This document shows, one piece after another, positions 28 to 28,852 of a DNA stretch of 31,481 bases. Below the pieces are notes generated by a model, which saw nothing but the letters and a program-made list of their open reading frames with translations, searched no databases and was not told where the DNA came from. The DNA is taken from positions 1 through 31,481 of IMG/VR virus record IMGVR_UViG_3300047548_000154. The stretch is one strand, 5' to 3'. Origin of the DNA: a virus. Each line of letters begins with the position of its first letter. Position 1 is the stretch's first letter. Made by a program: the position numbers and the translations under genes.

Positions 28-825
28 TTATTTCACACGATTCTCCGCATATGCAGCCATAATTTCAGGTTGTAAGGCTTCATAGCGGGAAGGATCAGTC
101 ATTTTAAGACGGATTAAATCCGCACGACGATATACTTTCTTAGAACTCTCACCAGAACCACCGACATCCACAGCAGCGGCCTTAAGAGCTTGTGCTTGCT
201 GTTTCTTACCAGTTTCTTGGACTTCAGTTGAACGAGTATTGGATTTCACCTGCTTAAGCTCTTTGTAAGTGCTTAAAAGTTCATCAGCAGCATCAAAGTC
301 AAACTCTGCATCTGCCTTAGCATACAAATCAAGACGGAACTTACTAGCCTTCACCCAGTCTTGGAAGCCCGCATCTTGTGCGATCTGTCCAAAGTCAGGA
401 TGCTTACTAGCCAGTTGCTGTGCTGTCTTCATACGCTTGAGTTCCAGAGCAGCCTGCTTTGCAGCTACAATGTCAGGATTCTTCTCAATTGCACGTTGCA
501 CTGCGCTTTGAGGATTTTCAAAGAAATCAACTTCGGGCGCATTCGTATCAACCTCTGGTTCAGACTTATTAGTTTCGAGTTGCCGCTTGAGTAACTGATC
601 CGCTAAAGACCGTACCTCATGAACCTCTTGCGCTTGACGACCAATCATCTTCTCAGCTTCTTGGTGCATCTTCACAATGTCTTCTAAGGACTTGCCTTTA
701 TACTTGTCTGGCAGCACGCTAATGCTCTCTTGAGGTTCCTCCCGTTGCTCAGGAGCCTCTTGAGTAATATCACTAGTCTGCTGTTCCTCTTCGTTATTAT
801 CAAACGATTCTTCAATAAGTGCCAT
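28..825 (-). CDS. Capsid scaffolding (assembly) protein
   Basis: Putative scaffolding protein that would guide capsid protein into procapsids and then leave. The 265-residue product has a very acidic N-terminus rich in Glu, Gln and Asp (about residues 5-35). A motif around residues 39-60 (PDKYKGKSLEDIVKMHQEAE) recurs in scaffolding proteins of podoviruses. Charged, helix-prone sequence follows, with a Lys/Arg-rich C-terminus. That acidic, helical composition with a basic end is typical of scaffolds. The start ATG at 825 has AGGAGAAC upstream. The gene comes after portal and fibre genes and directly before what should be the capsid gene, which is where T7-like phages carry it. The call rests on motif memory, composition and position; no catalytic motif exists to confirm it. 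Confidence 0.75.
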   Translation of the reverse strand: MALIEESFDNNEEEQQTSDITQEAPEQREEPQESISVLPDKYKGKSLEDIVKMHQEAEKMIGRQAQEVHEVRSLADQLLKRQLETNKSEPEVDTNAPEVDFFENPQSAVQRAIEKNPDIVAAKQAALELKRMKTAQQLASKHPDFGQIAQDAGFQDWVKASKFRLDLYAKADAEFDFDAADELLSTYKELKQVKSNTRSTEVQETGKKQQAQALKAAAVDVGGSGESSKKVYRRADLIRLKMTDPSRYEALQPEIMAAYAENRVK

Positions 826-894
826 ATTGTTGTTCTCCTGTCTCTCTATGAGATTATAGGACTATAAAATGTGAATGCTTAGCATTACCCTAGT

Positions 895-1125
895 TCAAGA
901 GTTCTGTTTCTTCTCGATTGCGAGTTTCTCAGCCCTCTTACGTTCCCACGCATCATACGCAGTTGGAAAAGCTCCAGTGAACCCTTCTAACTTCATCTGA
1001 GGCGCAGCAACTAAACGATGAGCATCCTTGTTACATACTTCACAGCTAATAACTCGGATGTCGTCATCAATCAAACGCTCTGTTACATGTCCTTCTTCAC
1101 ATTTGAAATCAAACATTCTCTTCAT
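895..1125 (-). CDS. Small zinc-ribbon-like protein
   Basis: A 76-residue protein with an N-terminal CxxxH pair (Cys9, His13) and a CxxC pair (around Cys28 and Cys31). This resembles the small FmdB-like zinc ribbons found in many phages. The C-terminal half is charged (Arg/Lys/Glu-rich) and probably helical. Its start overlaps the end of the upstream 81-residue gene by 17 bp, so the two are probably translated together under the promoter at 1388-1416. A role in head morphogenesis is possible from position next to the scaffold, but the sequence does not show it. Confidence 0.6.
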   Translation of the reverse strand: MKRMFDFKCEEGHVTERLIDDDIRVISCEVCNKDAHRLVAAPQMKLEGFTGAFPTAYDAWERKRAEKLAIEKKQNS

Positions 1126-1354
1126 CAGTGTTTAACTCCTCATATGCTGCTTCAAACATGCTCTTACGCTTAAGGATCAAGTCAATGATGTCAAGCTGAC
1201 CTTTACGGAAAAATAAATCTTGTGTGTCCGTTGTCAATGTTACATCGTTGATTGAATCTTTAATCTTTGCAAAGTCCTCTAACAAATACTTCCAACCATC
1301 AGTTGAGAACATATCGAAAGAGGACTCATAATACTCTTGTAGCTCAGGGGCCAT
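1109..1354 (-). CDS. Hypothetical protein, first gene of the scaffold/capsid transcription unit
   Basis: An 81-residue acidic protein without cysteines or membrane segments, probably mostly helical. I do not recognise a family with certainty, though small proteins of this kind sit near the portal and scaffold in related podoviruses. AAAGGA lies about nine bases before the ATG at 1354. It is the first gene after a consensus minus-strand promoter, with a leader of only about 25 nt. It overlaps the following zinc-ribbon gene by 17 bp. Confidence 0.6.
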   Translation of the reverse strand: MAPELQEYYESSFDMFSTDGWKYLLEDFAKIKDSINDVTLTTDTQDLFFRKGQLDIIDLILKRKSMFEAAYEELNTDEENV

Positions 1355-1387
1355 GATAGCTTATCCTTTAAAGTTACTAATGAGTAT

Positions 1388-1416
1388 ATTATACCATATT
1401 TTTATGGTTTTGTCAA
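1388..1416 (-). promoter_or_regulatory. Consensus sigma70-type promoter for the scaffold/capsid genes
   Basis: On the minus strand TTGACA (1416-1411) is followed by a 17-bp spacer and TATAAT (1393-1388), a perfect match to the bacterial sigma70 consensus. The -10 box is followed by ATAC, as at the other leftward promoter at 9599-9627. Most of the spacer is an inverted repeat, ACCATA and TATGGT around AAAA. It is placed to give extra transcription of the scaffold and the expected capsid gene. Confidence 0.85.
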
Positions 1417-1422
1417 GTGTTT

Positions 1423-1752
1423 TTAGATAGAATCTGCATTTAAGTCAAGAGTAACGCCTGTTCCAGATGCTTCGGGGAAGATAACAAAAGTGTCATCAAT
1501 CACCGGAGGCTCAGCAGCAGGCTTTTGCGATACCTTAACAGTGTAGACTTTACCGTCTTCAATGTAAGGATCACAAGGCTCTAAGAACTCAGTTGCATGG
1601 TCATAGGGCTTGAACACACTAACTTCCATGAGATTATTCTCACTATAGAAGCTAGGATGCACGCCTTGAGCAGAAAAGCTAGTGTTAGGAAACATAGCTC
1701 GGTAATCAGCAACCTCAATAACTTGGTTATTAACCACTTTAGCAACTAACAT
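1423..1752 (-). CDS. Hypothetical protein downstream of the tail adhesins
   Basis: A 109-residue acidic protein starting MLVAKVVNNQVIEVADYRAM, with a middle section rich in Phe, Tyr and Pro and an Asp-rich C-terminus. Short proteins with a 'K-V-x-N-x-x-V' opening often follow tail fibre genes and some act in fibre assembly or as fibre tips. I cannot assign this one firmly. It starts 14 bp after the LamG gene on the same strand and is the last gene before the promoter at 1388-1416, so it probably belongs to the adhesin transcription unit. Confidence 0.55.
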   Translation of the reverse strand: MLVAKVVNNQVIEVADYRAMFPNTSFSAQGVHPSFYSENNLMEVSVFKPYDHATEFLEPCDPYIEDGKVYTVKVSQKPAAEPPVIDDTFVIFPEASGTGVTLDLNADSI

Positions 1753-1766
1753 ATTAGCCTTTCTTG

Positions 1767-3140
1767 TTATTGGTCAGGGAATGCCGCAGTCGGCGGTGTG
1801 AAGTTGGCCGTGTAGCGGGCATAGCCCTTGGTGATCCGAAGATCATCAATATAACCGTTCAAGGCACTACCGCCTGTTCTGTCTGCTCCCACATACATGA
1901 CACCAGTCTGGTTAAAATTGCTTGCAGATGTTCCAGTAGCAGAGCTTACGCCATCAATATAAATAACTGTCTGGTTTGTACCTGTTCCTGAGCGCACAAC
2001 CGCAACGTGATACCAAGTATTTGCCATAAGTGCGGTTGTGGTTGTTATTGCTGTAGTTGCGTCAGTAAATACAACCTGATTCAACGAATTGACAGATAAC
2101 GACCAGCCAGTAGTGGAAGTGCCCTTTGAAACCAGACCACGTGCACTACCGAGTAATGCCAAATTAACCCATCCCTCAACCGTAAACGAACCACTGCCAA
2201 GTTGTAGGTTTGTGTTATCAGGAACAAGCAGCCAGTCCCCAGTCCCATCAAACGCAATAGACCCGGTGCCGTACTTCTTCACGCCGGTGCTGATCTGCGC
2301 GTTGCCAACAGTCTCCAGATCGTTCTCGGCAGCGTTGTCGAAGATGCCAGCGTTGGTGAAGTTGAGCAGCAGCGAAGTGCCGCTGATGGCGGTCAGGGGT
2401 GCAGTCGGGGGCGTAAACGTGGCCGTGTACACAGCAGTGCTCGTAACGCGCACGTTGCTGATGTAACCATTCAAGTATTCGATGTTGTCGTTTGTGTACG
2501 CACGACCGATTACTGCTTGGGTTGAAGAATATGTTTTGTTGAACGTTCCTGTGCTGGTCTGTAGAACTCCATTCACATAAATCTTTGCATTCCCAGCTCC
2601 GCTTCCGTTGCGAACACCTGCAACATGCGTCCATGTGTTCAAGGGCACCGTAGCTGTTGAAAGCACTTGATTAGCGCCCCAAGTCTCAGCAAACGAAATT
2701 CGCCCATCGTCCAAAACTCGGAAAAACCAACCGTCAGGAGAATTGGCTGTGTTTGTTGTTGAAACAATGCCTCCAGACCCACCCGTTGCTGGATAAGCCC
2801 TCAGATACACCCAGGCCTCAACAGTAAATGTGGAACCTGTAGCAGCCGACAGCGTAAGGCTCAGCCAGTCCCCATTCCCATCAAAGTACCCACTGCCACC
2901 GTTTGTGCTTGTACTATAAATTCCTGTAAGAGTAAAAGGAGAAAACGATCCCTGCGTGGTGTTGCCGTTGCGCGTGATGGTGAAGTTGTTGGCACTGCTG
3001 TCCACGAACGTGTTGTTTTGCGAGCCGTTGGTGCCATCACCATGCAGCAGCATCGACACGTAGTTGAACTGCGGGTCAGTATTCGCAGGTGCCGGGGCTT
3101 GATAGCCCGCAGCAGCCCGTAACATTTTATGTAAACTCAT
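1767..3140 (-). CDS. Tail adhesin with two LamG/concanavalin-like domains
   Basis: Probable receptor-binding or decoration protein of the virion. Two homologous jelly-roll units follow a short N-terminal linker. Each begins with a hydrophobic 'F(S/T)VE(A/G)W' strand, contains 'W(T/Y)HVA.VR' and an 'IY(V/I)(N/D)GV' strand, and ends with a similar tail (YTATFTPPTAP and YTANFTPPTAA). This is the LamG-like layout seen in phage side-fibre and capsid-decoration proteins, and such domains commonly bind sugars. I chose ATG 3140 rather than an upstream start because it forms an ATGA overlap with the stop of the fibre gene before it. The resulting product is 457 residues. DNA composition is patchy: segments near 2270-2480 and 2940-3110 are clearly more GC-rich than the rest, which suggests mosaic origin. 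The exact virion location is unknown. Confidence 0.75.
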   Translation of the reverse strand: MSLHKMLRAAAGYQAPAPANTDPQFNYVSMLLHGDGTNGSQNNTFVDSSANNFTITRNGNTTQGSFSPFTLTGIYSTSTNGGSGYFDGNGDWLSLTLSAATGSTFTVEAWVYLRAYPATGGSGGIVSTTNTANSPDGWFFRVLDDGRISFAETWGANQVLSTATVPLNTWTHVAGVRNGSGAGNAKIYVNGVLQTSTGTFNKTYSSTQAVIGRAYTNDNIEYLNGYISNVRVTSTAVYTATFTPPTAPLTAISGTSLLLNFTNAGIFDNAAENDLETVGNAQISTGVKKYGTGSIAFDGTGDWLLVPDNTNLQLGSGSFTVEGWVNLALLGSARGLVSKGTSTTGWSLSVNSLNQVVFTDATTAITTTTALMANTWYHVAVVRSGTGTNQTVIYIDGVSSATGTSASNFNQTGVMYVGADRTGGSALNGYIDDLRITKGYARYTANFTPPTAAFPDQ

Positions 3141-4252
3141 GCAACAGCTCCGACATAAGCGCCATAGACGGTAGAGCCTACCTTCCAAAGTTCAATGACA
3201 CCGTAGCCAGAGGTAGGAAGCGTAGGAGCAGTACCGCCAATCCAAACAACACCAATAGTGCTCCAAGTAACAGCATATGCAGTACCGTCAGCGATCATCA
3301 AAGTAACGCTGTGGCCCGCAGCAAAGTTAGTAGCTGTGGGAGTTCTATTGGCCCCTAAAGTCCACACTTGAATGGTTCCGTTGGCAGGATCAATGTCAAC
3401 AGAAGCACCATCAGTAATTGTGAAGACAGTTTCTTTGTAGCCCGTAAGGGTCTTGTTAGTCAGCGTCTGAGTATCAGTAGTGCCAACGATAGCGCCCGTA
3501 GGAGCCGTGACAGTGCTGAATCCAGAGCCGTTACCAACAATAACCCCATTTAAGGAAGTAGTAACAGCAAGAGTGCCGTTAGTGGTGATGGGAGAGCCGC
3601 TGACAGAGAAGCCAGAGGGCATAGACAGAGCAACCGAAGTAACTGTACCGCCGCCACCACTCACAGGAATCCACTCAACATCCGAGGCAGAACCATTAAC
3701 AGCTAACACCTTACCAGCATTAGTAGCAAGGCTAGGAAGCAGGTTAACACGAGCACCAGAGGCCGTAGAAGCCCCTGTACCGCCATCAGCGATAGCCAGA
3801 TCAGTGATGCCAGAGATGTTACCACCTGTAATGCTCACGTTATTAGCATTCTGAGAAGCAATGCTTCCGAGGCTGCTAGTAGTAGCATACGTGTTAGTGT
3901 CTAACGTCCAAGTATCAACTGCTGTCTTCTTCAAGAAACCAGAGGTGCCAGCCAAGCCTGCAATGGCAGTCAAGTCACCATCCAGCGGCTGCTTAGCATC
4001 CAGAGCAGTCTGAGTAGCTGTGCTGATAGGCTTGTTCAGATCACTGGTGTTGTCAACGTTACCGAGGCCAACATCACCTTTAACAAGCGTAACAGTGCCT
4101 GTCTTGCCAGCAACACTCTGCACAGGAGCTTTAGCGGCTAAATCAGCCACCGTAGTCTGCGAAGTGGCTCCCGATTGCACAATAGGCACTAACTCAGTCC
4201 CTGCTAAGGGCGTAGTAGCTGCCGGAAGTGCTGAAATTTTTACATCTGCCAT
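3137..4252 (-). CDS. Tail fibre-like protein
   Basis: A 371-residue protein built from repetitive Gly/Thr/Ser/Ala-rich segments. It includes motifs common to phage fibres: 'SALPAATTPLAGTELVPIVQ' near the N-terminus, 'VQSVAGKTGTVTL' with 'GLGNVDNTSD' around residues 50-75, and 'TDTQTLTNKTL' past the middle. The C-terminal part, about 110 residues of beta-rich sequence ending YGAYVGAVA, probably forms the tip. It starts five bp after the collagen-like gene and shares an ATGA overlap with the LamG gene, so three adhesin-type proteins are made in series. It is likely a trimeric host-recognition fibre. There is no sign of an enzymatic depolymerase domain or a chaperone domain. Confidence 0.8.
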   Translation of the reverse strand: MADVKISALPAATTPLAGTELVPIVQSGATSQTTVADLAAKAPVQSVAGKTGTVTLVKGDVGLGNVDNTSDLNKPISTATQTALDAKQPLDGDLTAIAGLAGTSGFLKKTAVDTWTLDTNTYATTSSLGSIASQNANNVSITGGNISGITDLAIADGGTGASTASGARVNLLPSLATNAGKVLAVNGSASDVEWIPVSGGGGTVTSVALSMPSGFSVSGSPITTNGTLAVTTSLNGVIVGNGSGFSTVTAPTGAIVGTTDTQTLTNKTLTGYKETVFTITDGASVDIDPANGTIQVWTLGANRTPTATNFAAGHSVTLMIADGTAYAVTWSTIGVVWIGGTAPTLPTSGYGVIELWKVGSTVYGAYVGAVA

Positions 4253-4257
4253 GTTAA

Positions 4258-4842
4258 TTATTCCCCAATTAAGTAAGAGCCATCTTCGGCAACAAGGAAG
4301 TCCCCACCTTCCGTCAGAATCTTAGTAGAAGTGCCAACAGTGCCCACCCAAGAGGTGAATTGACTCCATGTAGCACGCACCCAAGTTCCATTCTGCTTAA
4401 CAATCACCTCTGTAGGCTTAGGATTGTTAACAGCAGCAGGTAATGAGTTAGGATCAAACAGTTGCGACGATTGGGCAATGAGTTTTTCAGCTACTTTATC
4501 GTATTCTAAGTAGCCTGCATTGATTTCAGTGTCGTCAGAGAGCTTAAGAACCAGAGATTTATCAAAATCAATGTAAGCATCTACGACACTGACACCATTT
4601 ACGCCATCATTGCCATCTTTACCGTCTTTACCGTCACGTCCGTTAAGGCCATTGGCTCCCGGAAGACCATCTTTACCGTCCTTGCCGGGAAGTCCGGGTG
4701 CTCCTGCGTCACCCTTGTCTCCTTTATCGCCCTTATCGCCTTTGTCGCCTTTGTCGCCCTTAGGCATCTGGAGAACTCGTTTAACTTCATCCCGAAGTTT
4801 CTTGAATTCCCTCGCAAGAACAAGTAAATTAGTCTCAGCCAT
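4258..4842 (-). CDS. Collagen-like phage fibre protein
   Basis: A 194-residue protein with three regions. Residues 1-27 are a charged helix-prone head. Residues 28-83 are an unbroken Gly-X-Y collagen-like tract, first GDK repeats and then GAP/GLP/GKD/GRD/GND triplets. Residues 84-194 are a non-repetitive tail containing 'VSVVDAYIDFDKSLVLKLSD'. Collagen-like stretches in phage proteins form triple helices and act as rigid spacers in fibres and head decorations. The start overlaps the end of the portal gene by 8 bp. Together with the next two genes it forms the adhesin set. It may be an adaptor linking fibre to virion, but that is inference. Confidence 0.8.
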   Translation of the reverse strand: MAETNLLVLAREFKKLRDEVKRVLQMPKGDKGDKGDKGDKGDKGDAGAPGLPGKDGKDGLPGANGLNGRDGKDGKDGNDGVNGVSVVDAYIDFDKSLVLKLSDDTEINAGYLEYDKVAEKLIAQSSQLFDPNSLPAAVNNPKPTEVIVKQNGTWVRATWSQFTSWVGTVGTSTKILTEGGDFLVAEDGSYLIGE

Positions 4843-6868
4843 TAGCTGTATCCTTCATTAAATCTTGAAAAACAGCATTCTCACCCTGCTTTTGTTGGTT
4901 TTGAAGTTCAACAACCCTTAAGTTACTGTCAATTTCCTTCTCTTTCAAGGCCAATTCAGCTAACTTAACACGCCGTTCAAAGTCCTTAGCCTCGTTATTC
5001 TCATCCAAGTTGTTACTCAGAGCAGCAATAACCTTAGCTTTAGCCTCTTCAGGGGCAATCTGAGCCTCAACAGCAGCCTTCTGAGCCTCCGCAGTCTGCT
5101 TAGCAGCCTTGGATTGAAGCTCCTGCACCTGTGCCTGCACCAGAGCCATCTGAGCCTGCTGCTGCATCATGGCAGCCTGCTGAGCTTCAGGGTTAGGTTG
5201 GCTCATCTGATCCAGAGCAGAGATAAGCTCTAAGCGGTTAGACAGAGAACTATTACCAATGATACCCTTGAGAATCAGGGGCAGCACCGGAGTGTCAGGG
5301 CCGAGGGTCTGTAAGAGTGCAATAAACTGTTGCTGTTCAAACTCCCGAGCCAGAATACCAAGAGTAGCAGTGGGAATAAACGTAACATCAGCACTCGGAT
5401 AACGCTCAGCATCAAACTGCATGTATCGCCAAGCAGCCTTGTTGATGAACGGGATAAGGAAATCTTCTTGGAAGTTCGTCAGAGTACGTTTGTACTTCTT
5501 GATGATACCTGCCATAGCCATCGACATACCACCAGCGCCTGCATCACGAGGAGCAGCAGTGGGCATACCAGCAGCGTCAACAGTACCAGTAGCTTGCAGC
5601 AGTAATCGCTCAAAGTTCTGTGCAGTCTGAATCGACACAGGATCAGTCTGACCGAACTTCAGAGGCATCATGATCTGGTTAGGATCACCGTTGGTCAAGA
5701 ATTGAGCACCTGCACGCACTTGGAACTTAGCACCACGAGGCAGGCGAGTAGCATCCATAGCCATCATAGGAGCCGCTGTCAGAGCAACAGAGTCCATATG
5801 AGCACGCAGTTGACCGTCAATGGCCTTCTGCATGTTATAGGCCTTCTCAGCAGTGCCACGACCAAAGAAGCGCCCTGGAACAGTATCATCCTGATAAGCC
5901 ATCACAGGACGATCCTTCATCATGTAAGGATTCTCTTCAGCCTTGAGCAGTTTTGTGCCGTTAGCGATAACAACAATAGCTTCCACGAGGTCAGCATAGT
6001 CATCGGCAACAGAATCTTCAGGGAACAGGTCAACAACATCCTGACCTTCATTCTCTAACTGCTTCAGATACTCACGAGGCACTAAGCCGTAATACGTGAG
6101 CAGGCGAACCTTACCATCTTGATAAGTCGTAAGATCATCAGTAGGCTCAAGGTCATCATCAGGCATATCAGTGCCAATATCAACCTTACGATAGATACCT
6201 CGCTCAATACCTTCGACGACCTTGTGAATCGACACAAACTTTTCAATAGCACAACCAAGTGCATCATCAAGTGATGTAGCATTCGGGTCGATCAGGAAGT
6301 TCTTGGGGTTGACGGGCATGAGCTTGACAGCAACACGATCCATCTCTTTAACGCCAATAGCAGCTTGACCAATGACACCCGGAATAGGCTGAGTCGCAGG
6401 AACATACTCTTTCTCAGTCTTAACAATAATTTCACCGATGCCTGTACCGTAGATTTCAGCCATCAACTCAATCTGGTCAATAGACTTCTTGATCTTGTCC
6501 CGAGCAAAGTCCTCCATCAGCTTGAGCTTAATCTCTTCAACATCCAAGGGATTGCCATTCACATCGGCAATGTCATCCTTGATGTCAAAGAACTCACCCT
6601 GACCGAAGATAGCTTCCATGATCTCAGCGTGTCGAGTCTCAATAGCCTGCTGCGTAGCAGGGGAGACAATGCGACTACGCTCCGACTCTCGTGTACGATC
6701 TTCAGCAGCCCACTGACCACGGAAGATACGCTCAAACTCAAGCCAGTTGTCGAGGAAGTTAGTGTCCCGCCAATCACGCCACGAGTCTGTACGGGCAACA
6801 ACCCAAGAGACTAACTCTTTGTCAGACTCTGTAGGTTCAGCAAATTCGTTCTGTTCAAATTTTTCCAT
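4835..6868 (-). CDS. Portal (head-tail connector) protein
   Basis: Portal protein of the unique capsid vertex, through which DNA enters and leaves. The 677-residue length exceeds the roughly 536 residues of T7 gp8 and is close to larger podovirus portals. The N-terminal third has the acidic and aromatic pattern of this family ('DSWRDWRDTNFLDNWLEFE'). The central region has 'PRDAGAGGMSMAMAG', and residues from about 570 onward form a long Gln/Ala/Glu-rich coiled coil, as in portal crown or barrel helices. I chose ATG 6868, two bases after the stop of the HNH gene; an in-frame GTG at 6877 is the alternative. It lies downstream of the terminase genes, as expected. The insertion of the HNH gene just upstream may affect its translational coupling. 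Confidence 0.85.
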   Translation of the reverse strand: MEKFEQNEFAEPTESDKELVSWVVARTDSWRDWRDTNFLDNWLEFERIFRGQWAAEDRTRESERSRIVSPATQQAIETRHAEIMEAIFGQGEFFDIKDDIADVNGNPLDVEEIKLKLMEDFARDKIKKSIDQIELMAEIYGTGIGEIIVKTEKEYVPATQPIPGVIGQAAIGVKEMDRVAVKLMPVNPKNFLIDPNATSLDDALGCAIEKFVSIHKVVEGIERGIYRKVDIGTDMPDDDLEPTDDLTTYQDGKVRLLTYYGLVPREYLKQLENEGQDVVDLFPEDSVADDYADLVEAIVVIANGTKLLKAEENPYMMKDRPVMAYQDDTVPGRFFGRGTAEKAYNMQKAIDGQLRAHMDSVALTAAPMMAMDATRLPRGAKFQVRAGAQFLTNGDPNQIMMPLKFGQTDPVSIQTAQNFERLLLQATGTVDAAGMPTAAPRDAGAGGMSMAMAGIIKKYKRTLTNFQEDFLIPFINKAAWRYMQFDAERYPSADVTFIPTATLGILAREFEQQQFIALLQTLGPDTPVLPLILKGIIGNSSLSNRLELISALDQMSQPNPEAQQAAMMQQQAQMALVQAQVQELQSKAAKQTAEAQKAAVEAQIAPEEAKAKVIAALSNNLDENNEAKDFERRVKLAELALKEKEIDSNLRVVELQNQQKQGENAVFQDLMKDTANG

Positions 6869-6870
6869 AG

Positions 6871-7335
6871 TCACCACTTAACTTTGTTGGCTATTGCTTT
6901 ACACATCTCAATAAAATAGTCTTGAGAGTATTGTTGTTTAGCCATGTTTACGTCTTTGTGAAGCAACTGGATGTTACTTTTTAAGTAACCTTCGCTAGAA
7001 TCAATACGATCTATTGAAACAGTCGCTGTCAAGCCTTTTTCTGCCCAGCCAATATCCCAACCAGTCAAAGCACATTTTCTGTCTTGTTGGTTGTATAGAT
7101 CAATAATGTCTTGAGGCAATAAGTCCCAAGACAACCCTCTATGAATTCCGCCTTTACGCTTTGTTTCAAACCACGTATAAGGCATTGGGCCAAGGCGCCC
7201 CTTAAAATTATTGGAAGAATTAGAACAAGATTTACATTTCCAATCACCTAAAACAGCGGCTTTATAGTGATCCGCTCGTCCATAAGACTGCTCCGCACCG
7301 CATCCGCTACAGTTTTTGTAAAATCTCTTGTACAT
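6871..7335 (-). CDS. HNH homing endonuclease inserted between two structural genes
   Basis: A free-standing mobile endonuclease. The 154-residue protein has an N-terminal CxxC ... CxxC zinc-finger pair (Cys9/Cys12 and Cys35/Cys38). Its HNH core at about residues 85-135 contains 'CALTGWDI', 'VSIDRIDSSEGY' and 'NIQLLHKDVNMAKQ'. This is the layout of HNH endonucleases that invade phage genomes. It sits between the conserved 88-residue gene and the portal gene, which normally adjoin. Its last six residues (ANKVKW) nearly match the last six of the upstream gene (ASKVKW). Both stops are followed directly by the next ATG, as if the insertion copied or carried the 3' end of its target gene. Mobility is inferred, not shown. 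Confidence 0.8.
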   Translation of the reverse strand: MYKRFYKNCSGCGAEQSYGRADHYKAAVLGDWKCKSCSNSSNNFKGRLGPMPYTWFETKRKGGIHRGLSWDLLPQDIIDLYNQQDRKCALTGWDIGWAEKGLTATVSIDRIDSSEGYLKSNIQLLHKDVNMAKQQYSQDYFIEMCKAIANKVKW

Positions 7336-7336
7336 A

Positions 7337-7603
7337 TCACCATTTCACTTTTGAGGCCCACCAAGCCGCAGACATCTTGCCTTTGGCGATATTCTTTGCA
7401 TGACGATCTTTAAAGGCCTCATTGCGGGCAGTGCCATCAGGAGAGCCTTTAACGCCTTGCTGACCAAACCGAATAGTCTTGATCTTGTCGCCCTCTTTGG
7501 CAACAACAACGTGACTCTTGGTTGGATGGTCAGGGGTAGCTTTAGGTTTGTTATAGCCGCTTACGCCAGCCTTCTCAAGCCTAGAATCTTTCTTAGTTGC
7601 CAT
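7337..7603 (-). CDS. Conserved small phage protein between terminase and portal
   Basis: An 88-residue, very basic protein starting MATKKDSRLEKAGVSGYNKP. It is rich in Lys, Gly and His and ends SAAWWASKVKW. Proteins with this opening, a 'TKSHVVVAKEGDKIKTIRFG' core and this ending lie next to terminase or portal genes in many podoviruses. I recognise the family but no function is established. The start chosen is the ATG at 7603, one base after the terminase stop; a longer in-frame start at 7648 would overlap terminase. High basicity and position suggest a DNA-contacting or head-related role, which is inference. Confidence 0.75.
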   Translation of the reverse strand: MATKKDSRLEKAGVSGYNKPKATPDHPTKSHVVVAKEGDKIKTIRFGQQGVKGSPDGTARNEAFKDRHAKNIAKGKMSAAWWASKVKW

Positions 7604-7604
7604 A

Positions 7605-8861
7605 TTAGTATCCCGAGATAGGGTCAAATACTTCATACTCTTCTTCATCGTAATCAGGCATGAATGAAGAGATAGCTAATTGTTCAATGTAAGCCAGAGC
7701 ATCAACCAAGTCATCATGCACACCCTTAGTAGGGAACATAATCAGTTGATCCTCAAACTCAGCCCAGTCCTCATCCTCATTCAAGATTACTTTACCGTGT
7801 TCAAATCGCCCTTGTAAGGCCCAGATGACACGATCTGTTTTCTTCTTGTTACCGTGAGTGAGTGTCTGAATATGAGCAAAGGTGTTGTACTGCCGCATCA
7901 TGTCTTGTAATACGGTCATTACAGCATTCTTAGCAGTGCCTCGCTCAATACCTATTTGGATAGGTTCATATTCTTTAATGACCTTAAGAATCCTGAAGCA
8001 GGTATCCTTAATGTCCCATCGTCCATGCTGAATCTCTTTGACGAACCAGTCACCGTTGTCAGCAACCTTTACAATTGCAATGGCTGTCTCGTCTAACCTC
8101 TTCTTGTTCTGCGATCCTGCTGCGATGTCTTCAAAGCCTGCTAAGTCAATGGCAATCACGTAAGAACCATTGCTGGGTTCAGAGCCTTTCTTGACCCATT
8201 CCTGCTTGAACACATCTGCACCAGCGGTATCGAAGCTAGACAAATACTCCTGCTTGAATGCAAAAGAGCTTAGGCTACGCTTAGCAGCTTCAATTTCTTT
8301 AGGGTCGATAGTCTCGTTATCAGCAGTGGTAAAGTGCCAGGACTTCCACTCTTCATCTGTGTCTTCCTGCCCCAGCTTAAAGATATCGTAGAACCAGTTA
8401 CGGCCACTAGGTGTAGAAATGAACAGTGCTCTGCCTTTTTTGTCAGACAAAGAAGCTCGTAGAATCTTTTGCCATACTTCATCTTTAATGAACGCAACTT
8501 CGTCCATGACAAGATACACTAACGAGACACCCCGTAAGCTGTCAGGGTTGTCAGCACCGCGCACTAGAATCTTACGACCATTGATAAGGGTAATCTCTAG
8601 GTTATTCACATGGCTAGACTTGATAACAGGTCTGCCAAGGTCATGTAACAAGTCCCAGATAATGCTACGGGCCTGTCCAAGCGTAGGAGCCACATACATG
8701 ACGCTAGAGCCTTCAGGACAGTTCAGAGCCTCAATCAGCAGTGTAACAGCAGACAATCTGGACTTACCACATCGACGGCCAGCAGCAACAACTTTGAAGC
8801 GATGAGGGTCTTTGAAGACCTCTTGCTGCCACTTTAACAGTTGGAAATTAAGGCTTGTCAT
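7605..8861 (-). CDS. terL: Terminase large subunit
   Basis: The packaging motor ATPase and nuclease. The 418 residues show a Walker A motif GRRCGKS (28-34), Walker B LVYLVMDE (114-121) and a coupling motif STPSG (149-153). A C-terminal RNase H-like nuclease has acidic residues at Asp239 (VIAIDLAG), Glu306 (IGIERG) and the HDDLVDA cluster (382-388). This is the full two-domain terminase set. It starts 8 bp after the stop of the small-subunit candidate and is followed within two bases by the conserved 88-residue gene. It probably works with the portal encoded downstream to pump DNA into the procapsid. Whether packaging is headful or site-specific cannot be read from this sequence. Confidence 0.95.
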   Translation of the reverse strand: MTSLNFQLLKWQQEVFKDPHRFKVVAAGRRCGKSRLSAVTLLIEALNCPEGSSVMYVAPTLGQARSIIWDLLHDLGRPVIKSSHVNNLEITLINGRKILVRGADNPDSLRGVSLVYLVMDEVAFIKDEVWQKILRASLSDKKGRALFISTPSGRNWFYDIFKLGQEDTDEEWKSWHFTTADNETIDPKEIEAAKRSLSSFAFKQEYLSSFDTAGADVFKQEWVKKGSEPSNGSYVIAIDLAGFEDIAAGSQNKKRLDETAIAIVKVADNGDWFVKEIQHGRWDIKDTCFRILKVIKEYEPIQIGIERGTAKNAVMTVLQDMMRQYNTFAHIQTLTHGNKKKTDRVIWALQGRFEHGKVILNEDEDWAEFEDQLIMFPTKGVHDDLVDALAYIEQLAISSFMPDYDEEEYEVFDPISGY

Positions 8862-8869
8862 ATGCTCCC

Positions 8870-9277
8870 TTACTCGTCATAAGCATCCTTAAAAGAGTCT
8901 TTAATATCGACATCAGTCACATCAACATCAAACACTTCATCAGTGGAGACAGAAGGACTGTTCAAGCCACTAATGTTGATACTAATCTGAGGTGTGCTAC
9001 CACCAGACTTAGCTGTCTCAAAGGCAGACAAAGGAGCAATACGATCGACAATCAGCTTCCATGCTGCTGCTTGATTCTTATGATCATCATTAAGTGCAGC
9101 ATCAAAGATAGATTCTAAGACCCTAGCTGACTTAGGTGAGTTAAGCATACGTAGCTTATACTCATTGATAATAGCAGCTTCACCTTTGGGACGTCCTACT
9201 GTACGCTTCTCCTTGATTTCTGCTATGTCAGCTTTCTTTGGTCTTCCAACCTTGTTACCAGATTTAGGTGTTGCCAT
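8870..9277 (-). CDS. terS: Probable terminase small subunit
   Basis: A 135-residue protein directly upstream of the large terminase. The N-terminal 35 residues are basic with two AT-hook-like Gly-Arg-Pro motifs (VGRPKK and VGRPKG), which suit minor-groove DNA contact. The middle (about 35-80) is helical, with 'KLRMLNSPKSARVLESIFD' followed by a second helix. The C-terminal 40 residues are acidic (DEVFDVDVTDVDIKD). A DNA-binding N-terminus plus oligomerising helices matches small terminases that recognise the packaging site. The identification rests on gene order and architecture, since small terminases diverge strongly. It is the first gene of the leftward operon, about 315 nt after the promoter. 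Confidence 0.7.
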   Translation of the reverse strand: MATPKSGNKVGRPKKADIAEIKEKRTVGRPKGEAAIINEYKLRMLNSPKSARVLESIFDAALNDDHKNQAAAWKLIVDRIAPLSAFETAKSGGSTPQISINISGLNSPSVSTDEVFDVDVTDVDIKDSFKDAYDE

Positions 9278-9598: not shown

Positions 9599-9627
9599 AT
9601 TATACCATACTTTTCAAGATTTGTCAA
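9599..9627 (-). promoter_or_regulatory. Main leftward promoter for packaging and structural genes
   Basis: On the minus strand TTGACA (9627-9622), a 17-bp spacer and TATAAT (9604-9599) form a perfect sigma70-type promoter. The bases around the -10 (ATGGTATAATATAC) match those of the promoter at 1388-1416. Two TGTTACA copies lie 7 bp upstream of the -35 box. The predicted transcript begins near 9592, immediately before a small 5' hairpin, and has a leader of about 315 nt before the first gene. Confidence 0.85.
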
Positions 9628-9933
9628 GTACTTTGTAACATCTGTAACAACTTTTACAAACTTTACACAACTGTAAGGTTGTTAACATCACAATCTTGCC
9701 TGCATTTATGCCAATAGTCTAGGATTGTCTAGCCTACTATCACGTTTATTACTTTTAATTATACCAGTCCTGATCTTTATAGTACTATGGTTGCTTAAAT
9801 TATAGGCACTTCTTAGTTTTCTTCTCTGTCTGATCTGTCCCTAATTAATCCTAATTTAGCTTTTTTGTGTGCTCCAGAGGCTCCCGCAAAAGTAACACAA
9901 CAGTCCACCCCCTCCCCCCCATAGTCATAATTA

Positions 9934-10067
9934 TACTAGACTGTTCAGTCACTTACTAGACTGTTCAGTCACTTACTGACCAGGCAGTCATTAACGATAC
10001 TGTTCAGTAATTAACCAGTTGGTACATTTACTGCCTAGACTGTCTAGTCACAATCTAGTCTGTACAG
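9934..10067. repeat. Array of about seven dyads spaced roughly 20 bp
   Basis: Short inverted repeats follow one another: GACTG/CAGTC twice (9939-9950, 9959-9970), TGAC/GTCA (9977-9990), ACTG/CAGT (9999-10008), ACCA/TGGT (10014-10023), CTAGAC/GTCTAG (10035-10047) and CTGTACAG (10060-10067). Their centres are about 20, 19, 20, 15, 22 and 22 bp apart, close to two helical turns. The first two belong to a 20-bp direct repeat of which 24 bases are identical. A repressor array or replication initiator sites are plausible. Confidence 0.65.
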
Positions 10068-10090
10068 TGTGAGGGATGATGTAGGTGCCT

Positions 10091-10150
10091 ACAAAGCACA
10101 CTACAAAGCACACTACGAAGCACACTATCGAGTCACCTATCAAGTGCTCA
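10091..10150 (+). repeat. 12-bp tandem repeat array, five units
   Basis: Units of ACAAAGCACACT: two perfect copies (10091-10114), one with a single change (10115-10126) and two degenerate copies (10127-10150). The array begins 23 bp after the dyad array and lies just before the promoter candidate at 10158-10186. Iteron-like repeats beside dyads are common at replication origins and at cooperative operator sites. No coding explanation is available here. Confidence 0.7.
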
Positions 10151-10157
10151 TCATCCA

Positions 10158-10186
10158 TAGTCAAAGGCTATCCAGGTTATTATAAT
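10158..10186 (+). promoter_or_regulatory. Rightward promoter candidate overlapped by operators
   Basis: TAGTCA, a 17-bp spacer and a perfect TATAAT (10181-10186). The -35 box is weak (four of six consensus bases), so an activator may be needed or the site may be fortuitous. Its predicted start point falls inside the first of two 14-bp palindromes, which would let a bound repressor block it. Confidence 0.4.
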
Positions 10187-10187
10187 G

Positions 10188-10231
10188 GTATGTATACATA
10201 CGAATCTGGCCAACTCTGTATGTATGCATAC
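10188..10231. promoter_or_regulatory. Twin palindromic operator candidates, centres 30 bp apart
   Basis: GTATGTATACATAC (10188-10201) is a perfect 14-bp palindrome. GTATGTATGCATAC (10218-10231) differs from it at one base. Their centres lie 30 bp apart, close to three helical turns, so two dimers would sit on one face of the helix. They lie directly downstream of a -10 box. The regulator is unknown and no obvious repressor gene is in this window. Confidence 0.6.
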
Positions 10232-10280
10232 TAATATCGGGTATCTGTTACACACTGTTACAACTACATGTCACAGGGGC

Positions 10281-10311
10281 TTGCAAAACACTATGAATCT
10301 GTGTTTATAAT
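10281..10311 (+). promoter_or_regulatory. Rightward early promoter candidate
   Basis: TTGCAA, a 19-bp spacer and TATAAT (10306-10311), about 50 bp before the first early gene. The spacer is longer than ideal. Two copies of CTGTTACA (10245-10252 and 10255-10262, period 10) lie upstream of the -35 box, like the inverted TGTAACA pair upstream of the leftward promoter. Confidence 0.5.
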
Positions 10312-11369: not shown

Positions 11370-11657
11370 ATGAATTCTAATCCGATCACGTTTACGCGCA
11401 TTCGTAATGATGTCAACGGCAATCCTCGATATGTCTGCCACTTCCTGACCTTGGATGTCCAGGGTTATCAATCTAACATTGGAGTGTCTGGCCGATATGC
11501 TATTGCCTGTAAGCTTGCAAATGTCATTGGTGGGCGCAAATACCATACAAAAGCCTATGGTGGTGGCGTTGTGTTTCAATCATACAGTCTCGGTGAATTG
11601 GTGTCTGCCATCAATCGTGTGACCAATAAAGGCTTTACAGGCTTTTATGTCGAATAA
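11370..11657 (+). CDS. Hypothetical early protein
   Basis: A 95-residue protein with predicted beta strands in the first half (FTRIRNDVNGNPRYVCHFL) and Gly/Tyr-rich sequence in the second (YGGGVVFQSYSLGEL). No catalytic motif or membrane span is visible. It begins after GGAGATTTTCAATC, the same leader type as the gene before it. The upstream 33 bp of the two genes are visibly related, which suggests that this part of the early region grew by addition of gene cassettes with their ribosome binding sites. Confidence 0.65.
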   Translation: MNSNPITFTRIRNDVNGNPRYVCHFLTLDVQGYQSNIGVSGRYAIACKLANVIGGRKYHTKAYGGGVVFQSYSLGELVSAINRVTNKGFTGFYVE

Positions 11658-11670
11658 AGGATTGTCTATC

Positions 11671-11841
11671 ATGTATCAAGTCCAATTCATTTCAACGGGC
11701 ATTGTAGCCTACAGTGCCAGCAATCGCGCACTGGCACGCCATTGGTACGAGTGCAACAATTTTGATGTCGACACTGGCGAATGTCTGTATCTGTTCAAGC
11801 TCGTTAAGGTCAAACACGATGGAATCAATCAAGGAACCTAA
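11671..11841 (+). CDS. Hypothetical early protein
   Basis: A 56-residue protein, MYQVQFISTGIVAYSASNRA onward, with a central Cys and a basic C-terminus. The ATG at 11671 is chosen because AAGGATTGTCTATC directly precedes it, and this resembles the leaders of the neighbouring early genes. An upstream in-frame ATG at 11647 has no good binding site and would overlap the preceding gene. No family or function recognised. Confidence 0.6.
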   Translation: MYQVQFISTGIVAYSASNRALARHWYECNNFDVDTGECLYLFKLVKVKHDGINQGT

Positions 11842-11998
11842 AGAATGTCCTAAGGGATGGCCCTTCAGAGCCTTTAATGGGCATCAGACGCTCGAATCTA
11901 AAGCTCTTGAGGGGCTACCCTTACCTAAGCCATTAAAAGGGCTTAAAAAGGCTTTTAACACTTTCAACGATGATGAGGATAAAGAGGCTTTACTATGA
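11819..11998 (+). CDS. Hypothetical Lys/Pro-rich early protein
   Basis: A 59-residue protein overlapping the preceding gene by 23 bp and the following one by an ATGA. It is rich in Lys, Pro and Leu (CPKGWPFRAF, GLPLPKPLKGLKKAFNTF) and ends acidic. The underlying DNA is repetitive around the word GGGCTTAAAAAGGCTTTTAA and its variants. It is probably unstructured or a short peptide. The tight coupling to the hexapeptide-repeat gene after it suggests co-expression. No function can be given. Confidence 0.5.
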   Translation: MESIKEPKECPKGWPFRAFNGHQTLESKALEGLPLPKPLKGLKKAFNTFNDDEDKEALL

Positions 11999-12597
11999 TT
12001 TACAATGTCAAAGGAAAACACATTTTAGATGATGCACAAGTGTACGGTGATGCACAAGTGTCCGGTGATGCACAAGTGTACGGTAATGCACAAGTGTACG
12101 GTAATGCACGGGTGTCCGGTGATGCACGGGTGTCCGGTGATGCACAAGTGTACGGTAATGCACGGGTGTACGGTAATGCACGGGTGTACGGTAATGCACA
12201 AGTGTACGGTAATGCACGGGTGTCCGGTGATGCACAAGTGTACGGTAATGCACGGGTGTACGGTAATGCACGGGTGTACGGTAATGCACAAGTGTACGGT
12301 AATGCACGGGTGTCCGGTGATGCACAAGTGTCCGGTGATGCACAAGTGTACGGTAATGCTATAATTCAAAAAACAGCCGACTATCTAGTTATTGGCCCTG
12401 CTAAATCTTCTGGGAGATTTACAACTGCACATAAAGACAGTCAAATTGGAGTTCGTGTAAACTGCGGATGTTTTAGTGGCTCTATAAAGGAATTTTCAGA
12501 AGCTATTGAAGAAACTCATAAGAATAATAAAGAAGCATTAGAGCAATATAGACTTTTTTGTCAGCTTATCGCTTTTAACTTTGGAGTAACAGAATGA
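11995..12597 (+). CDS. Hexapeptide-repeat (left-handed beta-helix) protein, copy 1
   Basis: A 200-residue protein. Residues 1-13 are a short head and residues 14-121 are 18 consecutive hexapeptides of the form A-(Q/R)-V-(Y/S)-G-(N/D), which would wind into about six turns of left-handed parallel beta-helix. The remaining 79 residues form a separate C-terminal domain with 'VIGPAKSSGR', 'TTAHKD' and 'GCFSGSIKEF'. Hexapeptide helices occur in acyltransferases and in non-enzymatic scaffolds. No catalytic His typical of LbH acetyltransferases is visible, so an enzyme role is not supported. The C-terminal domain recurs in related bacterial and phage hexapeptide proteins as I recall. It overlaps both neighbours by ATGA. 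A paralog follows at 12828. Function unknown. Confidence 0.8.
   Translation: MIYNVKGKHILDDAQVYGDAQVSGDAQVYGNAQVYGNARVSGDARVSGDAQVYGNARVYGNARVYGNAQVYGNARVSGDAQVYGNARVYGNARVYGNAQVYGNARVSGDAQVSGDAQVYGNAIIQKTADYLVIGPAKSSGRFTTAHKDSQIGVRVNCGCFSGSIKEFSEAIEETHKNNKEALEQYRLFCQLIAFNFGVTE
12034..12357 (+). repeat. 18-bp coding tandem repeat, 18 units (copy 1)
   Basis: Eighteen units of 18 bp such as GCACAAGTGTACGGTAAT. Almost all variation is at three sites: CAA or CGG, TAC or TCC, and AAT or GAT. TAC goes with AAT and TCC with GAT in all but the first unit. A five-unit block (90 bp) is itself duplicated in tandem. Any gain or loss of whole units keeps the frame. Confidence 0.9.
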
Positions 12598-12815
12598 AAA
12601 CTCTCAAACAATTTGCATATACACTCAAAGGATTTGACTTCTACGGTATCTGTGAGATTCAGACTGTAGAGTGTCTGCCTGTAATGGTAACTTGCACTGA
12701 TCTATACATTGAAGGATTGGGCGATGATAACCCGCCAGATGTAAAGGACATTGTAGATTATCAATTGATCCTGGACATTGAAGACATGGTACGCATCGAA
12801 TGGACTAACCAATAA
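12594..12815 (+). CDS. Hypothetical protein between the two hexapeptide genes
   Basis: A 73-residue acidic protein. Strand-rich opening MKTLKQFAYTLKGFDFYGIC, two further Cys around residues 28 and 34, and an acidic second half ending VRIEWTNQ. It shares an ATGA overlap with copy 1 of the hexapeptide gene and lies 12 bp before copy 2, so all three are probably made from one message. No family recognised. Its position between two paralogs suggests either that the pair arose by a duplication that left it in between, or that it belongs functionally to them. Confidence 0.65.
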   Translation: MKTLKQFAYTLKGFDFYGICEIQTVECLPVMVTCTDLYIEGLGDDNPPDVKDIVDYQLILDIEDMVRIEWTNQ

Positions 12816-12827
12816 GGTTAATTGAAT

Positions 12828-13304
12828 ATGAAACAAGCACAAATTCTTGATAAGGCACAGGTGTACGGTAATGCACAAGTGTACGGTAATGCACGGGTGT
12901 CCGGTGATGCACAAGTGTACGGTAATGCACGGGTGTACGGTAATGCACGGGTGTACGGTAATGCGTGGGTGTCTGATAATGCGCGAATGTATGATAATGC
13001 ACAAGTGTCTGGCGATGCGTGGGTGTATGATAATGCACAGGTGTCTGGTAATGCACAAGTGTCTGGTGATGCACTGATAGGAAATACAGCCGATTATGTC
13101 GTTATTGGCCCTGCTAAATCATCTGGAAGATACACCACAGCACATAAAGATTGGTATCTAGGTGTCCGAGTAAACACTGGGTGTTTTTCCGGGAGCATAA
13201 AAGAATTTGAAGCGGCCATAAATAAAACACATGCGGGTGACGATGAATTTAAACGTCAATACCTTATGTTTGTGTCCTTAATCAAGGATCATTTTAATTT
13301 GTAA
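12828..13304 (+). CDS. Hexapeptide-repeat (left-handed beta-helix) protein, copy 2
   Basis: A 158-residue paralog of the product of 11995-12597. After a 9-residue head come 12 hexapeptides and a C-terminal domain related to that of copy 1 (VIGPAKSSGR, TTAHKD, GCFSGSIKEF are shared). The first six repeats match copy 1 almost base for base, whereas the last six are diverged and include Trp, Met and Asp variants (AWVSDN, ARMYDN). The start is ATG 12828, with AAGG ten bases upstream. A six-residue repeat with a varying number of coils suggests a rod-like spacer. No catalytic residues are seen. Function unknown. Confidence 0.8.
   Translation: MKQAQILDKAQVYGNAQVYGNARVSGDAQVYGNARVYGNARVYGNAWVSDNARMYDNAQVSGDAWVYDNAQVSGNAQVSGDALIGNTADYVVIGPAKSSGRYTTAHKDWYLGVRVNTGCFSGSIKEFEAAINKTHAGDDEFKRQYLMFVSLIKDHFNL
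12855..13070 (+). repeat. 18-bp coding tandem repeat, 12 units (copy 2)
   Basis: Units 1-6 (12855-12962) are almost identical in DNA to units of copy 1, while units 7-12 (12963-13070) are diverged. The abrupt change within one array suggests recent exchange with, or copying from, copy 1 over the first half only. Confidence 0.85.
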
Positions 13305-19410: not shown

Positions 19411-19495
19411 GCAAGTGTGGTGGAATAGGTAGACACAGCAGACTTAAAATCTGCCGCAGTAATGCGTAAGGGTTCGAGTCCCTTCTCTTGCACCA
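19411..19495 (+). tRNA. tRNA-Leu (anticodon UAA)
   Basis: An 85-nt class II tRNA. The anticodon stem GCAGA/TCTGC encloses a loop with TAA at 19445-19447. A variable arm CGCA-GTAA-TGCG is typical of tRNA-Leu, the T-arm contains GGTTCGAGTCC, and the CCA end is encoded. The acceptor stem has one T-T mismatch. It reads UUA (and perhaps UUG) codons, which are common in AT-rich phage genes. Confidence 0.93.
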
Positions 19496-19499
19496 TTTA

Positions 19500-19574
19500 G
19501 CCGCCTTAGCTCAGCGGTAGAGCAACCGCCTTGTAAGCGGTAGGTCATCTGTTCGATACAGATAGGCGGCACCA
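19500..19574 (+). tRNA. tRNA-Thr (anticodon UGU)
   Basis: A 75-nt tRNA starting four bases after the first one. The acceptor stem GCCGCCT pairs perfectly with AGGCGGC. The anticodon stem ACCGC/GCGGT encloses TGT at 19532-19534. The T-loop contains TTCGATA and the CCA end is encoded. It reads ACA codons. It is probably co-transcribed with tRNA-Leu from the promoter at 19374. Confidence 0.93.
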
Positions 19575-28651: not shown

Positions 28652-28852
28652 TCAGTCCTTACCTGCTACATCCTTATAGATAGTATACAGTTTATGTGCA
28701 ATCATTAACACAGTGTAAATCAGGGTAGCCCATAAAAGAATCTCAGATACTTGATACCCCGCTACAGTTGCTAGAGAGACTGTCACAGGAGCAGCAGACT
28801 TAGCTGCCATAGCTCCCATTGTCTCAGAAGTTGTCTGCATTGTTCCTGACAT
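28652..28852 (-). CDS. Holin
   Basis: A 66-residue protein with one clear membrane helix (about 37-57, ILLWATLIYTVLMIAHKL) and a weaker hydrophobic stretch before it (about 22-33). The size, short charged C-terminus and lack of charged residues in the first part resemble the T7 gp17.5 type. Its start overlaps the stop of the 701-residue gene by one base (TAATG), and it ends just before the endolysin start, which gives a classic holin-endolysin-spanin order. A second Met at residue 5 might give a dual start. Confidence 0.82.
   Translation of the reverse strand: MSGTMQTTSETMGAMAAKSAAPVTVSLATVAGYQVSEILLWATLIYTVLMIAHKLYTIYKDVAGKD

Follow-up and report, generated by a model that had tools for sequence, protein, structure and literature searches.

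It is known that phages use proteins to disable regulators of their hosts. Among systems built from DNA sites, the pSK41-type parC centromere consists of contiguous 20-bp tandem repeats that lie on one face of the helix and are bound by ParR, and iteron-type origins of plasmids and theta-replicating phages contain tandem units of about 20 bp in helical phase, with DnaA boxes nearby and a skew minimum. Clusters of sites with a proposed role in diverting a regulator from its targets are represented by datA of Escherichia coli, a chromosomal locus of DnaA titration, and by synthetic transcription-factor decoys (PMC7826281). Host repressor sites occur in the intergenic regions of LexA-controlled phages such as GIL01, and the NrdR operators of bacterial nrd promoters comprise paired 16-bp boxes with a 16-bp spacer (PMC12051234).

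The locus described here lies in a stretch of 31,481 nucleotides (hereafter, the window; IMG/VR record IMGVR_UViG_3300047548_000154) and resembles each of these systems in part. Like datA and the synthetic decoys, it presents clustered sites, but those of the phage locus are exchangeable and serve six or more unrelated regulators, and for the phage titration is only a proposal. It shares with iteron-type origins the tandem units in helical phase, the skew minimum, and, in relatives, the nearby DnaA boxes, whereas its units are palindromic, are replaced by sites of unrelated proteins in sister phages, and are accompanied by no recognised initiator. Contiguous 20-bp repeats on one face also recall pSK41-type parC, but the phage is not a plasmid and no parM- or parR-like genes were seen in it. 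In contrast to GIL01-type operators, sites for several regulators occur together, away from promoters, and no lysogeny genes were seen; unlike those of bacterial nrd operators, the NrdR sites do not precede an nrd gene, the ribonucleotide reductase gene of the phage lying about 14 kb away. Each site type is known in its own right, and their gathering as swappable modules in a single phage frame would, to our knowledge, be new: literature text searches, mostly of papers outside subscription, returned neither a published precedent for such a phage module nor, in agreement with the preliminary description of the window, a named phage system with this pattern. A text search for TAGACTG/CAGTCTA operators gave only an unrelated P. 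aeruginosa fabA probe.

Genome context and relatives

The window is part of the genome of an uncultured phage in which the portal, terminase, and tail genes (28–9277) are read leftward, whereas the rightward genes encode a primase-helicase, DNA polymerase, exonuclease, thymidylate synthase, ribonucleotide reductase, MazG, and PhoH. Relatives are plentiful in IMG/VR (236 stretches), with TerL identities of 76% to 86% in the best 80 of the 236. The TerL of the closest isolate phages is only about 30% identical, which places the group at a distance from all isolates, and no DNA match to the window was found among phage isolates or plasmids, resources that pointed to no host either. Six relatives of 36.9 to 39.6 kb carry direct end overlaps of 55 to 127 bp and, because these fall at arbitrary places, look like closed assemblies. 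A T7-type RNA polymerase (PF00940) was matched in none of ten records, including nine near-complete relatives, in a search whose controls were silent, being without that family; promoters of the T7 type were dropped from the analysis on this ground. With no phage RNA polymerase found in the nine near-complete relatives, host transcription proteins are expected to be important throughout.

A phased array of 20-bp dyads

The array occupies positions 9936–10074 and is built of 20-bp units, one of them of 19 bp, with the core ACTgnncAGT; it is supported by direct repeats, by phase, and by unit-wise 20-bp insertions and deletions relative to the nearest relative, L270. The preliminary description had claimed seven dyads at intervals of roughly 20 bp. 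The interval is borne out by direct repeats at 9916–10068, whose successive spacings are 20, 20, 19, 20, 20, and 20 bp, and six of the sites are credible: four units have a perfect core, ACTn4AGT, in phase (at 9940, 9960, 9999, and 10039), and two have one core mismatch each (9979, ACCAGGCAGT; 10059, TCTGTACAGT). The remaining one, near 10018, does not hold up as named, since the fifth unit (approximately 10019) is degenerate and doubtful and the dyad proposed there, CCAGTTGG, is about 5 bp out of phase.

Comparison with shuffled sequence gave a divided answer. The best self-match over 120 bp at a lag of 19 to 21 was 0.558, a value reached by none of 1,000 dinucleotide shuffles of positions 9601–10300 (mean, 0.367; maximum, 0.45), whereas a generic count of imperfect palindromes spaced 18 to 23 bp apart was not significant, 51 of 1,000 shuffles reaching the observed value. 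The strength of the array lies in the relatedness of its units, their phase, and their recurrence in relatives rather than in palindromy by itself, and on these grounds the array is confirmed as real. It lies, as previously noted, between divergent promoters: a leftward sigma-70 promoter with a complete consensus match (9599–9627, minus strand; TTGACA-17-TATAAT with TG; 12/12) ahead of the terminase and structural genes, and a weaker promoter-like site reading rightward (10158–10186, plus strand; TAGTCA-17-TATAAT; 10/12). Cooperative binding on one face of the DNA, suggested earlier from spacings near two helical turns, gains support, because spacing in multiples of 20 bp and the gain and loss of whole units in relatives would fit a dimeric protein.

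In 81 related regions that bear these dyads, dyad-to-dyad distances were 20 bp in 59 pairs, 40 in 21, 60 in 25, 80 in 21, 100 in 17, and 120 in 13, other distances being few, with minor neighbors such as 19, 39, and 101. The consensus in relatives is ACT(G)nn(C)AGT, with 1.8 to 1.9 bits at the core positions and almost none at the two central bases; ACTGnnCAGT occurs 65 times in 136 regions versus 9 times elsewhere on the same contigs. Divergence between alignable pairs was 9% in the dyad core, 25% in the linkers, and 45% in the center, a ranking that favors the core partly because dyads were defined by it.

Both flanks of L270 are nearly identical to those of the window, yet its array lacks the first two units, carries an additional unit, exactly 20 bp long, and retains the last unit's half-sites only in part. 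Comparison of L221 with L286 likewise revealed an exact 20-bp deletion immediately right of the frame described below, so that exact unit changes were seen at both L270 and L286; in the comparison of L286 with L295, a stretch is exchanged for one bearing parS and a LexA-like site. The array thus evolves in phase and by whole units. Loss of dyads beside conserved flanks had been named beforehand as grounds for rejecting the array. Such loss does occur, while spacing in multiples of 20 bp recurs; because the loss takes the form of whole 20-bp modules or of replacement by other regulator sites, it alters the earlier interpretation and leaves the feature itself standing.

A similar row of dyads is present on a 104-kb contig without the frame (L277), and also on L291. 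That such contigs carry a similar array suggests a common cellular target behind the arrays of different phages. In approximately 85,000 species genomes, the strict tandem pattern had a single match, in a Clostridia MAG, with about 0.2 expected by chance; this rarity would exclude tandem operators in host genomes but not single ones (TAGACTGnnCAGTCTA), and would fit a phage-encoded binder equally well. On another phage contig of 32 kb (L280, 340–540), tandem ATACCC-TACT-GGGTAT palindromes stand beside two ACTGnnCAGT dyads; this palindrome array presumably resembles CsoR-type metal-sensor operators.

A conserved frame with variable contents

The array of the window fills a frame that is common to the relatives and consists of a sigma-70 promoter that reads leftward, a C-run, an interior of variable sequence, and then GAGGGnnGATGTAGG. 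Between the two arms of the frame the interior measures 85 to 260 bp and is hypervariable. The left arm (9860–9887, minus strand) reads GCGGGAGCCTCTGGAGCACACAAAAAAG outward and is kept in relatives as TGnAGGAGCCTCTnACGCnCAC; the right arm, or anchor (10067–10101, plus strand; GTGTGAGGGATGATGTAGGTGCCTACAAAGCACAC), has the consensus GTGTGAGGGGCGATGTAGGnGCCTACAACGTACAC in relatives, at least 22 of whose 35 positions were matched in 71 of 137 regions. Judged by eye from alignments, the two arms are alike in inverted orientation. The C-run (CACCCCCTCCCCCCC, 9906–9920) forms the left border of the interior; in relatives it reads CCCCTCCCCCC, and of 51 distinct loci, 44 have the form CCCCTCCCCC inside the region, whereas none has it outside. 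Consensus leftward promoters gather 250 to 300 bp left of the C-run (57 calls in 137 regions), and the rightward promoters of relatives follow the anchor after about 125 to 225 bp.

The zone right of the anchor holds DnaA boxes and parS in relatives and neither in the window, where a repeat search returned three tandem 12-bp repeats of (C/A)CTACAAAGCACA (10088–10127, plus strand). Beyond the promoter-like site lies a pair of dyads 30 bp apart (10188–10231), GTATGTATACATAC and GTATGTATGCATAC (GTATG-n4-CATAC), whose half-sites are kept in L270 with different centers. A direct repeat, TGTTACA-n3-TGTTACA, is also found near the rightward promoter (10246–10262); 19 further regions contain it as well, and outside the regions the contigs have 16 more copies.

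Host-regulator sites in sister phages

Sites were counted in 136 distinct 500-bp regions and in 1.12 Mb of the same contigs, i.e., in 16 times more DNA. The DnaA box TTATCCACA occurred 163 times inside versus 8 times outside, perfect boxes being present in 59 of the 136 regions and absent from the other 77 and from the window. The NrdR box ACACTAn4TAGTGT was found 20 times, in 13 regions, versus never outside, with gap controls at zero; the LexA site CTGTAn6TACAG, 17 times versus none (wrong gaps, 2 inside and 11 outside); the Fur site GAGAATnATTCTC, 13 times versus none; and parS with at most 1 mismatch, 8 times versus none. A SlmA-like pattern, GTGAGnnCTCAC, had 9 occurrences inside versus 1 outside, with wrong-gap controls in relatives at background; it was picked after inspection of the data, only its half-sites being independently published (GTGAG/CTCAC, within the SBS consensus GTGAGCGCTCAC / AGTGAGCGCTCACT; PMC4423959). 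Patterns for CRP, FNR, ArgR, PurR, and MatP showed no enrichment in the 136 regions over the same contigs, and LuxR was a further site class considered. Shuffles of the same regions gave approximately zero for every site class and wrong-spacing controls were near zero; the enrichment of consensus sites is strong and specific to the place.

The pairing of the NrdR sites agrees with functional requirements. All seven adjacent box pairs in relatives are 32 bp apart, i.e., two 16-bp palindromes separated by a 16-bp spacer; NrdR requires a spacer of 14 to 17 bp, or one helical turn more, and other spacers weaken binding about a hundredfold (PMC12051234). Across 2.9 million viral contigs, the pair pattern was recovered on 24, of which 21 have it in this frame (in two cases with a single changed base in the C-run); neither chance nor general palindromy is an explanation for the pairing. 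Four NrdR-like boxes in a row were also observed on a contig without the frame (L329, 11916–12020), suggesting that arrays of NrdR sites occur in other phages too.

The classes are distributed unevenly within the locus. Inside the frame lie all placed Fur (9/9), NrdR (19/19), and SlmA-like (18/18) sites and 52 of 57 20-bp dyads, whereas 61 of 78 DnaA boxes and all 5 parS sites lie right of the anchor. In relatives, sites keep clear of the core promoters, at distances of at least about 125 bp from the rightward and about 250 bp from the leftward one. Dyad array and named sites often share a frame, for example in the combinations FSA5, NA3, and DA4. The window itself holds none of the named host sites (DnaA, NrdR, LexA, Fur, parS, SlmA-like), and 37 of the 136 regions hold no recognised site class. 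Exact single palindromes in related regions include TGTTTCACGTGAAACA, AATGAGAATGATTCTCATT, and TACTGTATAGATATACAGTA. Several recurrent palindromes without a known binder are strongly enriched, among them TACGTAn4TACGTA, GTTAGTn4ACTAAC, and GTCTTATATAAGAC (e.g., in L034, L035, L166, L195, L002, and L052).

Possible functions of the frame and its array

We tentatively propose, as the best explanation of these patterns, that the frame is a modular landing pad for regulators of the host chromosome, placed between the divergent halves of a phage genome of about 39 kb and most likely acting as a decoy. The window would belong to this class by virtue of its frame and of array-bearing relatives with named sites. 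Its array would be a module for one dimeric protein, probably host-encoded: several host proteins of known identity have sites in the frame, in many cases alongside the array, and a host binder is for this reason judged likelier than a phage protein. The preliminary description was right about spacing, location, and, as far as the pattern indicates, cooperativity, but overlooked that the array is one of several swappable fillings of a conserved frame.

The most serious competitor, though a doubtful one, is a replication origin located at the GC-skew minimum, where an initiation complex would form on DnaA boxes and 20-bp iterons and the other sites would be accessory. In eight complete or near-complete relatives of about 39 kb, no more than about 1.7 kb separates the array from the skew minimum, the maximum falling roughly opposite on the genome, and the minimum of the window itself is at or near the array; this fits an origin, but the change in gene direction would explain it just as well. 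The phase of the array is iteron-like and DnaA boxes are strongly concentrated in the region, mostly right of the anchor, yet the window and more than half of the regions lack a perfect box, origins do not include NrdR, Fur, or LexA sites, and an initiator was not recognised in the phage. The origin reading may hold in part alongside a landing pad, since DnaA boxes and parS occupy a zone of their own. Somewhat less probable, and unlikely overall, is what the preliminary description had implied, namely an operator array whose dyads are bound cooperatively by a regulator or initiator of the phage. Strict phase and the near absence of tandem dyads from host genomes speak for such an arrangement, as does a family of early genes encoding 64 to 71 aa (window 11647–11841) that is present in 7 of 7 array-bearing versus 27 of 75 other regions, an association not significant after correction for the many families. 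Pfam searches of ten small ORFs surrounding the array (nine on the early side), however, recovered no helix-turn-helix or other DNA-binding family and hence no cognate repressor; moreover, sister phages exchange the array for sites of known host proteins, a different phage bears a similar array, and the sites do not overlap promoters.

Two further readings are far less credible. LexA, NrdR, and Fur bound at a distance could hold back phage transcription for as long as the host is free of stress, a notion to which we give little weight. These classes are repressors, the region lies between divergent promoters, and phages under LexA control are known; against this stand the distances from the core promoters given above, the lack of any integrase or repressor, and with it of any sign of lysogeny, among the ORFs searched, and the presence of DnaA, ParB, and SlmA sites, which do not fit. 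A packaging (pac) site for the small terminase is the least probable of all, and we regard it as hardly tenable: the array lies 0.65 kb upstream of a putative terS (8870–9277, placed by its position beside terL), but a packaging site should be constant, and most relatives in which terS and terL are conserved have no dyad array, among them many with 76% to 86% TerL identity.

Returning to the landing pad, its array in the window would present a same-face row on which one dimeric repressor, probably encoded by the host, binds cooperatively. With less certainty, multiplying phage genomes might supply dozens to hundreds of copies of the sites and pull the regulator off the host chromosome. Capture of NrdR, LexA, and Fur would free the ribonucleotide reductase, SOS, and iron genes; that of DnaA would restrain initiation of host replication; and that of ParB and SlmA would disturb segregation and division, while replication of the phage itself may also draw on the DnaA boxes and parS of the right-hand zone. 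Fur is normally abundant, so that one site per genome would make a weak sponge. The broader proposal, which we likewise put forward tentatively, is that a swappable cassette of high-affinity sites allows lytic-type phages to sequester DnaA, NrdR, LexA, Fur, ParB, SlmA, and the dyad protein at once, takeover being exerted by DNA decoys and not by protein inhibitors. If true, a DNA module of interchangeable sites for regulators of replication, segregation, division, SOS, iron, and dNTP supply would constitute a different and cheap route to takeover. It would also form a natural catalogue, in which the unexplained palindromes of the frame, including the 20-bp dyads of the window, point to further host regulators worth capturing. 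The idea is testable in a laboratory strain.

Other features of the window

A leftward gene at 28852–30957 encodes a 701-aa protein without a PHROG match. Rfam gave two tRNAs only, and an RNA element in the window was dropped from consideration; adjoining phage tRNA genes, Leu(TAA) and Thr(TGT), lie at 19411–19574. A small early protein (11370–11657) matches Pfam Phage_TreK (PF24229, E 5e-22), a family named after terminal-repeat genes of Staphylococcus phages, and the gene at 11995–13304, which shows an 18-bp periodicity, encodes a beta-solenoid protein of YdcK-like repeats (phrog_5070) that has very many relatives in other phages.
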